Shown: in pieces, positions 24,335-33,071 of the stretch
How the letters are laid out: each line of letters starts with the position of its first letter
Position numbering within the stretch: the stretch's first letter is position 1
DNA from: Rickettsiales bacterium
GTDB taxonomy: Bacteria; Pseudomonadota; Alphaproteobacteria; Rickettsiales; SXRF01
NCBI GenBank assembly: GCA_947459535.1
Contig: CANHDY010000008.1
Span: 1-33,071 of the forward strand
Direction: 5' to 3'
DNA: 33,071 bases
Notes under the pieces: generated by a model
Database searches by the model: none
What the model was told of the DNA's origin: nothing
Seen by the model: only the letters and a program-made list of their open reading frames with translations
Made by a program: the position numbers and the translations under genes

Positions 24335-24341
24335 ATATTTC

Positions 24342-24419
24342 GTAGGTTGCGAAGGTTACGAAGGTGATTAAGAAACAACCTACGAAACCTAATCAACTTA
24401 CGCAACCTTCGAAACCTAC
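24342..24419. repeat. Inverted repeat of degenerate 9-mers between the BON gene and gshB
   Basis: The left arm reads GTAGGTTGC, GAAGGTTAC, GAAGGTGAT (24342-24368). The right arm on the minus strand, from 24419 down, reads GTAGGTTTC, GAAGGTTGC, GTAAGTTGA. The arms pair over about 30 bp with four mismatches and one gap; the loop is about 24371-24389. The units match those flanking the four-helix-bundle gene at 32571-33027. It fills the space between the BON gene stop (24420) and the gshB start (24334). Confidence 0.8.
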
Positions 24420-31786: not shown

Positions 31787-32569
31787 ATGCTCAAAGGAAA
31801 AAACGCCATCATCACCGGCTCCACCTCCGGCATCGGCATGGGCATTGCCTACAAGCTCGCAGAAAGCGGCTGCAATGTGCTGATCAATGGTTTTGGTGAT
31901 GCCGCCGCCATCGAAGCGGAACTCAAAGATATCACCGCGAAATATGGTGTAAGAGACGCCTACTCAAGTGCTGATATGAGCAAGCCCGACCAGATCGCTG
32001 GTATGGTGAAACAGTGTGAGGACACGTTCGGAAGCTGCGATATCTTGGTCAATAACGCCGGCATTCAGTTCACCGCCAATGTCGAGGATTTTCCGCAGGA
32101 AAAATGGGACTCAATCCTCGCCATCAACCTGTCATCCGCCTTTCACGCCATCAAGGCAGCACTGCCCGGTATGAAAAGTCGCGGCTTTGGCCGGATCATC
32201 AACATCGCTTCGGCGCATGGGCTGGTGGCATCGAAACAAAAATCAGCCTATGTGGCCTCCAAGCACGGCATTGTCGGGCTCACGAAAGTGACTGCGCTGG
32301 AAACCGCGGATTTCGACATCACGGCCAACGCCATCTGCCCCGGCTGGGTGCTGACGCCGCTGGTGCAAAAACAGATCGATGACCGCGCGCGCGCGCAAGG
32401 CTGCGATGCCAAAAAAGCCGAAGCGGAACTGCTCGGCGAGAAGCAACCCAAAAAACGCTTCAACACACCGGAAGATATTGGCGCGATGGCCGTGTTCCTC
32501 TGCGGCCCCCACAGCGCCGCCATGACGGGTGAGGTAATCAGCATGGATGGCGGCTGGACAGCACAGTAG
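31787..32569 (+). CDS. 3-hydroxybutyrate dehydrogenase (SDR family)
   Basis: 260 aa, full length for this enzyme. The classical SDR motifs are GSTSGIG (11-17), NNAG (89-92) and the catalytic residues Ser142, Tyr155 and Lys159 in ASAHGLVASKQKSAYVASKHG-type sequence. The C-terminal part (NAICPGWVLTPLVQKQIDDR, then ARAQGCDAKKAEAELL and LGEKQPKKRFNTPEDIG) is characteristic of bacterial D-3-hydroxybutyrate dehydrogenases. It oxidises (R)-3-hydroxybutyrate to acetoacetate with NAD, using the monomer released from polyhydroxybutyrate. GCGAGG lies before ATG 31787. A patatin-like gene next to it is, to my knowledge, common in alphaproteobacteria; here a repeat-flanked gene separates them. Confidence 0.93.
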   Translation: MLKGKNAIITGSTSGIGMGIAYKLAESGCNVLINGFGDAAAIEAELKDITAKYGVRDAYSSADMSKPDQIAGMVKQCEDTFGSCDILVNNAGIQFTANVEDFPQEKWDSILAINLSSAFHAIKAALPGMKSRGFGRIINIASAHGLVASKQKSAYVASKHGIVGLTKVTALETADFDITANAICPGWVLTPLVQKQIDDRARAQGCDAKKAEAELLGEKQPKKRFNTPEDIGAMAVFLCGPHSAAMTGEVISMDGGWTAQ

Positions 32570-32570
32570 C

Positions 32571-33027
32571 AAGGTTTCGAAAGTTTAGGATGTTTCGTAG
32601 GTTGCGTAGGTTTTCATGAAAGCGGGTGGATTTAAAAATTTACTCGTTTGGCAACAGGCGATCGAGCTTACGGATCTTGTTTACGATCTTTGCCGAGACT
32701 TACCAAAAGAAGAGCTGTATGGCCTTGGATTACAGCTGCGTCGTTGCGCAGGATCTATACCGGCTAATATTGCAGAAGGTAGTGGTCGAGGGTCAAAGAA
32801 AGAGTTTATTCAATTTCTTCGTATCGCTTATGGCTCGTTATGCGAGCTTGAAACCCATATCATTATTGCTCAGAGACAAAAATTGGCGTCCTGCGATTGG
32901 AAAGCATTGGAACAACAATTATCGTCTGTGAGCCGCTTACTAAAACTATTGATTCAATCGCTAAAAGCACCACGATGAATTGCTAAACCTACGCAACCTG
33001 CGCAACCCACAAAGCCTTCGCAACCTC
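32571..33027. mobile_element. Putative small mobile unit: four-helix-bundle gene inside 43-bp terminal inverted repeats
   Basis: Left repeat 32571-32613 and right repeat 32985-33027 align as inverted repeats without gaps at 33 of 43 positions. The innermost 15 bp (AGGTTGCGTAGGTTT at 32599-32613 and its complement at 32985-32999) are identical. Each arm is a chain of degenerate 9-mers such as TAGGTTGCG and AAGGTTTCG. The left arm begins 2 nt after the dehydrogenase stop and the right arm ends just before the patatin-like ATG. That this is a mobile unit is my inference; target duplications are not evident. Confidence 0.6.
32616..32978 (+). CDS. Four-helix bundle protein, 23S rRNA intervening-sequence (S23/IVP) family
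   Basis: 120 aa, the full family length. Signature features are LLVWQQAIELTDLVYDLC near residues 10-27, LGLQLRRCAGSIPANIAEGS near 37-56, and GSKKEFIQFLRIAYGSLCEL near 59-78, followed by a last long helix. The family was first found as a reading frame inside intervening sequences of 23S rRNA genes; many members lie outside rRNA. The related Avd protein of diversity-generating retroelements binds nucleic acid. No molecular role is proven for stand-alone members. TTA leucine codons and lower GC set it apart from its neighbours and suggest recent arrival. The ATG is 3 nt after the inner repeat, whose TAGG may act as a weak ribosome binding site. Confidence 0.92.
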   Translation: MKAGGFKNLLVWQQAIELTDLVYDLCRDLPKEELYGLGLQLRRCAGSIPANIAEGSGRGSKKEFIQFLRIAYGSLCELETHIIIAQRQKLASCDWKALEQQLSSVSRLLKLLIQSLKAPR

Positions 33028-33028
33028 T

Positions 33029-33071
33029 ATGACCAAAGCCATCGATCTTGCCAGTCAGGGCGGCGGCGCGC
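33029..33071 (+). CDS. Start of a patatin-like phospholipase gene, 3' end outside window
   Basis: Only 14 codons are visible: MTKAIDLASQGGGA. This resembles the N-terminus of bacterial patatin-like phospholipases, in which a short strand is followed by the LALQGGGAHG oxyanion loop. The position after 3-hydroxybutyrate dehydrogenase agrees with a common alphaproteobacterial gene pair. The nucleophile motif GxSxG would lie beyond the window edge. No ribosome binding site is visible because the upstream bases are the right inverted repeat of the preceding element. Confidence 0.6.
   Translation, partial: MTKAIDLASQGGGA

Follow-up and report, generated by a model that had tools for sequence, protein, structure and literature searches.

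The locus described here raises the question of why a small gene of the IVP (four-helix-bundle) family should lie enclosed by inverted repeats in the gap between two host genes, and of how such a unit, if mobile, could spread with no transposase of its own. A preliminary description of the window (the whole 33,071-nt stretch of DNA analyzed, contig CANHDY010000008.1 of Rickettsiales bacterium assembly GCA_947459535.1) had proposed a candidate minimal mobile element. This interpretation is supported by the analysis presented below, in which the two outcomes named as refuting it (the gene at the same place in relatives with degenerate or absent arms, and no association of IVP genes with such arms elsewhere) were both tested and neither occurred.

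Structure and composition of the element

The features of the locus are presented in Table 1. Repeat detection placed the arms at 32572-32613 and 32985-33026 (42 nt each), with 33 of 42 positions complementary (79%) and the inner 15 nt identical, in agreement with the inverted arms first reported; described more finely, each arm consists of five AGGTT-like cores and four 4-nt spacers, giving 41 nt. The inverted repeat score is 39; with the same procedure a score of 24 was reached in 0.8% of dinucleotide shuffles, 3.4% of mismatched flanks and 6% of other ORFs. The element is approximately 450 bp in size with a single gene of 120 codons, and it fills almost the whole of the gap between the bdhA stop codon (TAG, 32567-32569) and the patatin ATG (33029). 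It shows the arrangement by which we propose to define such elements, an IVP gene between inverted five-core arrays of constant 7-9 nt spacing. As previously noted, no transposase gene is present within it. The gene had also been called foreign-looking, and its GC content (43% versus 57% for the window) and its use of TTA for leucine (6 of 21 codons versus 0 of 16 in bdhA) are consistent with this. The gene-less relative with the same 9-mer units was recovered as a pair of arrays, the 3' array being flanked by the start codon of a minus-strand gene and the stop codon of the next gene.

Table 1. Coordinates of the element, its host genes and the gene-less hairpin within the window.
Feature	Position	Strand	Details
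Gene-less hairpin, 5' array	24335..24366	+	9-mer cores, one decayed
Gene-less hairpin, 3' array	24377..24417	-	five cores
bdhA (3-hydroxybutyrate dehydrogenase), upstream host gene	31787..32569	+	stop codon 2 nt before 5' arm
5' arm	32572..32612	+	cores AGGTT/AAGTT/ATGTT/AGGTT/AGGTT; 4-nt spacers TCGA, TAGG, TCGT, GCGT
IVP / four-helix-bundle gene, 120 aa	32616..32978	+	PF05635, TIGR02436; AlphaFold model compared with homopentamer 2gsc
3' arm, inverted five-core array	32986..33026	-	minus strand: AGGTT GCGA AGGCT TTGT GGGTT GCGC AGGTT GCGT AGGTT
Patatin-like gene start, downstream host gene	33029..33071	+	runs off window

A second PF05635 gene of the same genome (L005, G000:C107:5447-5753) encodes a protein closely similar to the window IVP and likewise lies immediately ahead of a patatin gene, and its 3' arm is almost the same as that of the window element (32571-33071). 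Contig C8 breaks in the patatin gene and C107 in the IVP gene, which points either to duplication of the locus or to variation among strains in the assembly.

Empty sites in related genomes

The genome under study (G000, 1.89 Mb) contains six PF05635 genes by profile search and, among the genomes compared, is the only one with the unit at the bdhA/patatin junction. In the sister species of the genus (G001) the bdhA orthologue (94% amino acid identity) has a stop codon overlapping the patatin ATG, and in four outgroup genomes of the family (L089, L091, L093, L097) patatin follows straight after bdhA with no insert, as would be expected had the unit been inserted between two adjoining genes, as originally suggested; at no such junction was the gene seen with decayed arms. 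For all five G000 IVP sites with mappable flanks the orthologous G001 junction was intact and empty, in two cases exactly at an ATGA stop/start overlap. On a plasmid of Calothrix brevissima NIES-22 a 513-nt unit lies between two genes which, on plasmids of Tolypothrix, Aulosira, Nostoc carneum, Anabaena cylindrica and N. commune, are separated by a 2-3 nt gap, and a unit follows a TraM-type gene on plasmids of Nostoc C052 and N. edaphicum, three other plasmids having approximately 52 nt at that place. Such empty sites reflect either insertion or loss between species, and comparison of the genomes, with several outgroups available only for the bdhA and Calothrix sites, indicates insertion. No target-site duplication was recognized at the filled/empty pairs (bdhA, the G000/G001 sites, Calothrix, Nostoc); some junctions were clean (L003, L004) and others lacked approximately 10-40 nt (Calothrix, Nostoc).

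At the TraM-type junction of the Nostoc plasmids (L318, L322), ATCC 53789 carries a gene-less pair with GGGAACT/GGGAATA units and plasmid H of C057 carries a different array pair (AATTCAA), making three different inserts at one junction. Stop-broken or split IVP genes with persisting arms were observed at G037:C4:27984, G009:C16:8662-8984 and L328, as expected for decaying mobile elements.

Arms around PF05635 genes in other lineages

The association of arms with the IVP gene proved more general than could be seen from the window sequence alone. A sample of 131 PF05635 genes was assembled from the genes of relatives and, by score rather than at random, the best 80 matches in named genomes, whose phyla included Acidobacteria, Cyanobacteria, Bacteroidota, Chloroflexota, Planctomycetota, Firmicutes, Patescibacteria, Proteobacteria and others, and arms were scored when an inverted repeat score of at least 24 was obtained between the two 200-nt flanks. 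IVP genes were regularly flanked by arms (111 of 131, 85%), 15% of loci having none at this threshold, while control rates at score 24 were 0.8% for dinucleotide shuffles, 3.4% for mismatched flanks and 6% for other ORFs on the contigs concerned. In structure the arms are tandem arrays, with a period of 7 in 75 cases, 8 in 19 and 9 in 4, and G exceeds C in the 5' arm of 106 of the 111. The sequence of the unit varies from lineage to lineage and differs between genera.

Agreement between repeat unit and protein

Between loci with less than 50% protein identity the share of common arm 6-mers was 0.02; it rose to 0.15 where identity was 60-70% and to 0.41 where it exceeded 70%. A further test was offered by Xanthomonas, in which hundreds of GGGAATC repeats have been described, with four units preferred and 70 inverted pairs; the relevant passages of that report give their origin as unknown and describe the repeats as generally without association to mobile elements (Rehm 2015, PMC4692102). 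If the idea developed here is right, the Xanthomonas IVP should bear GGGAATC arms. This was found to be the case, as genes 86-88% identical to XCC0516, an identity on which the assignment of these genomes to Xanthomonas rests, have GGGAATC arms and are located between accB and accC. Approximately 30 loci of the family lie between accB and accC, with arms of GGGAATC, GGGATTC or GTGAATC. Tandems of GTGAATC numbered 60 and 383 in the two genomes with GTGAATC arms and 0-1 in 13 others; those of GGGATTC numbered 200, 100, 97 and 25 in genomes with GGGATTC arms, and those of GGGAATC 319 and 117 in genomes with GGGAATC arms. The commonest tandem unit was identical to the IVP arm unit in 12 of 14 Xanthomonadaceae genomes (permutation p about 0.001, orthologues counted separately and G685, with GTGATTC arms, left out of the scoring), the exceptions being G509 and, through one very long array, G337.

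Gene-less array pairs

Extending the search for the 9-mer arms to the rest of the genome gave 77 occurrences of the motif, compared with 2 for the reversed control; 47 were present in G001, and in 14 other genomes of the family the motif was at background (0-5, like the reversed control). A motif-free search of nearly the whole of G001 returned 44 array pairs with a period of 7 or 9 nt, compared with 0-1 periodic hits in mispaired-window controls, and three of the unit families among these pairs match the three IVP genes of G001. The loops of the gene-less hairpins are unrelated to one another, for which reason the hairpins were rejected as copies of one master sequence. Most mappable 9-mer hairpin positions are common to both species of the genus, and G001 keeps 9-mer pairs without any 9-mer IVP; the pairs are therefore long-lived and able to outlast the gene.

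At one intergenic position a 9-mer hairpin in G000 (C6:21041, L295) corresponds to a GTGCTTGG-type 7-mer hairpin in G001 (L210:10021). Either the site has been used again or the unit has been rewritten throughout; the presence of a different unit family at one position in each species was taken to imply that sites are re-used. At L022 (G000:C24:4178-4410) a tandem duplication, with copies 142 bp apart, comprises a 9-mer hairpin together with part of the end of the gene before it. Separate long G/C-rich palindromes of the form CCCCTCCCCC...GGGGGAGGGG, with no 7-9 nt periodicity, were observed in G001 at L195:5472, L253:3235 and L273:11008.

Five cores per arm and the IVP pentamer

Array length was measured as the maximum-scoring segment against the periodic consensus. 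The 7-mer arrays peaked at 29-33 nt (133 of 232 arms, 57%, or 52% when the accBC orthologues of xanthomonad loci were removed), whereas only 10.5% of simulated random-length arrays passed through the same procedure fell within this range. The 8-mer arrays peaked at 35 nt and the 9-mer arrays at 41 nt. Each of these lengths equals four periods plus one core, and thus five cores. In the 9-mer family of the genus, where AGGTT cores and NCGN spacers can be counted directly, five cores were present in 33 of 46 arms and the remainder, at the edge of the criterion, had four or six. A single uninterrupted GGGAATC array from G337:C1:326879 onward, with approximately 200 tandem matches, is far above the five-core norm.

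The window protein is a member of PF05635, '23S rRNA-intervening sequence protein' (118 bits, E 3e-34, cut-off 33.8), and of TIGR02436, 'four helix bundle protein' (118.4 versus 24). Its AlphaFold model (pLDDT 96) aligned with 2gsc at a TM of 0.91, and structure matches comprised XCC0516 of Xanthomonas (2gsc), BT_0352 (2rld) and, more distantly, Avd. The solved relatives 2gsc and 2rld each have five chains as homopentamers, and a homopentamer torus has also been described (PMC4990558). One ring would then probably cover one arm, with one core per subunit. The match between the number of cores at each end and the number of subunits in the ring, five in both cases, constitutes a rare prediction of stoichiometry from comparative sequence data. 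The trp RNA-binding attenuation protein TRAP is likewise a symmetric ring that binds evenly spaced short words, one per subunit; the likeness is by analogy only, the TRAP fold being unrelated, its target 11 triplets on RNA and the system non-mobile. Over 183 sequences, positions Q40, R43, S47, N51, E54, S74 and E77 of the IVP are conserved at 98-100%, which is many polar residues for a plain scaffold. The protein is under purifying selection (median dN/dS 0.18 among 29 accBC loci).

Proposed mechanism and alternative explanations

Our favored reading, which we hold to be likely, is that the locus is a mobile DNA element of minimal, self-contained form, in which the IVP pentamer reads the cores of each end, one to a subunit. 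An IVP (PF05635) gene would be its only gene, with an inverted array of five short cores, at 7-, 8- or 9-nt spacing, on either side. IVP would assemble as a five-membered ring, each arm being recognized by one ring with one core per subunit, and rings would mark both ends, where, on DNA, each strand has a G-rich array at its 5' side. Marking of the ends would allow the element to be copied elsewhere, in practice to positions between operon genes and in the sense orientation, with the promoterless IVP gene expressed by read-through. IVP may also act in trans on gene-less array pairs with the matching unit, which would explain why the dispersed repeats of a genome carry the unit of its IVP. Joining would be carried out either by host replication or repair or by a candidate activity of IVP itself, residing in its invariant polar residues. 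A reverse transcriptase or RAYT supplied in trans was rejected, as neither is present where copies are most numerous: no RVT_1 (PF00078) match was found in G000 (6 copies) or in G037 (10 copies, from ten PF05635 matches in a genome rated 100% complete), and no Y1_Tnp (PF01797) match in G000, G001 or G037. A phage origin was also rejected, no IVP of the window type being found in 50,697 phage records.

An alternative which we regard as unlikely is that IVP is a host-owned regulator of its own operon, inherited vertically and non-mobile, with the arrays serving as operators or mRNA-stability hairpins. With respect to co-directional neighbors, taken from crude ORF calls, 82 elements are in the sense and 9 in the antisense orientation, and elements begin at a median distance of 4 nt from the upstream stop, the median distance from their end to the following ATG being 16 nt. 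The sense orientation among operon genes would suit a regulator, as would the long residence between accB and accC in the approximately 30 xanthomonad loci, the purifying selection on IVP and the several hairpin positions common to two species. Selection for read-through expression explains the sense placement, with transcription-linked insertion as a possible alternative. A non-mobile regulator is, however, difficult to reconcile with the empty state of all five orthologous sites tested, with copy positions that differ among related genomes, each of which has between 0 and 10 copies, and with units that differ between genera. Nor do the arms have the G.U excess expected of selected RNA hairpins, as mismatches comprised 100 G.U versus 112 A.C. 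In-register complementarity was 0.847 versus 0.832 for unit-shuffled arms, and 0.849 versus 0.849 for gene-less pairs. An RNA hairpin under selection was rejected on the basis of both results, and each arm seems to be maintained as an independent site on DNA and not as half of an RNA stem.

Generation of the arrays by slippage or template switching, with the IVP gene as a mere passenger, is improbable. Slight variation in unit counts (6 versus 7 in two Nostoc plasmids), the existence of very long uniform arrays such as the one in G337 and the unrelated hairpin loops could all be accounted for in this way. Against it, array length is held at five cores in different phyla, arms are associated with one gene family in 85% of cases versus 6% for neighboring ORFs, and the unit follows the protein.

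More improbable still is a retroelement in which IVP acts as an Avd-like accessory of a reverse transcriptase in trans and spread takes place via RNA. The sense-strand bias would fit such a scheme, and Avd of diversity-generating retroelements (DGR) shares both the fold and the pentamer (4dwl, 8ub7; TM about 0.75). Avd, however, acts alongside a reverse transcriptase and a pair of template and variable repeats, neither of which is present here; the arms lack RNA-type wobble, and G000 and G037 are without an RVT_1 match, although a reverse transcriptase too divergent for the PF00078 profile could escape this search. That the unit is nothing more than a classical 23S rRNA intervening sequence (IVS) displaced to intergenic DNA is scarcely credible, for although the protein family is the same and GACAGAT heptamers precede the S23p gene in the Coxiella 23S IVS (PMC4990558), none of 40 scanned IVP loci was in rRNA, no Rfam match was obtained in the window, and dispersed gene-less arrays fall outside the IVS concept.

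Relation to known elements and published repeats

The window element fits no known class of mobile element tested. It shares the protein family and terminal inverted repeats with the 23S rRNA IVS of Leptospira and Coxiella (S23p/IVP gene), which has long been suspected to be mobile and in Coxiella has heptamers before the gene (PMC4990558). It differs in lying between two protein genes, bdhA and patatin, and not inside a 23S rRNA gene, in having five-core array ends and in its dispersed gene-less copies. More probably, the element described here is the general form and the rRNA IVS one particular instance of it. The likeness to REP sequences and their dedicated proteins (RAYT, TnpA-REP) drawn in the preliminary description holds in outline, both systems having dispersed intergenic palindromes which match the repeats around one dedicated chromosomal gene, but it does not extend to the Y1 HUH transposase, absent from G000 and G037; in addition, the ends are tandem arrays of short words rather than one palindrome, and the unit changes between lineages. 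Set against MITEs and IS-type transposons, the element has inverted arms, no transposase gene inside and no recognized target-site duplication, the search of the genome for a transposase acting in trans having covered some families, Y1 among them.

No earlier description of such an element was found in the open literature (PMC), and it appears to represent a previously unrecognized and widespread kind of mobile DNA. If so, few autonomous mobile elements would be smaller, and the element, with no recognized transposase, would pose the question of how it moves. PF05635 is a large orphan family, misnamed after rRNA and without a function since its structure was solved in 2006, and the present proposal provides it with a testable role. 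In its broadest form the proposal is that homopentamer-measured ends have five words each, the word being free to change with the protein, that the heptamers of Xanthomonas, Nostoc and others are non-autonomous progeny, and that 23S IVS are copies which landed in rRNA; for this wider reading we consider the case evenly balanced.

An origin is thereby offered for several published and unexplained heptamer repeat families. GGGAATC (Xanthomonas), GGGGATT (Nostoc) and TAACTGA (Beggiatoaceae) were reported without a known origin and, in the sections describing them, are not linked to an IVP gene. Of these words, GGGAATC is repeated in the arms of the IVP that xanthomonads carry between accB and accC. 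TAACTGA is described as abundant and unexplained in the part of the Beggiatoaceae report that concerns it (PMC4679880), and in a Phycisphaerae locus (L148:2950-3400) the IVP arms consist of TCAGTTA repeats, its reverse complement.
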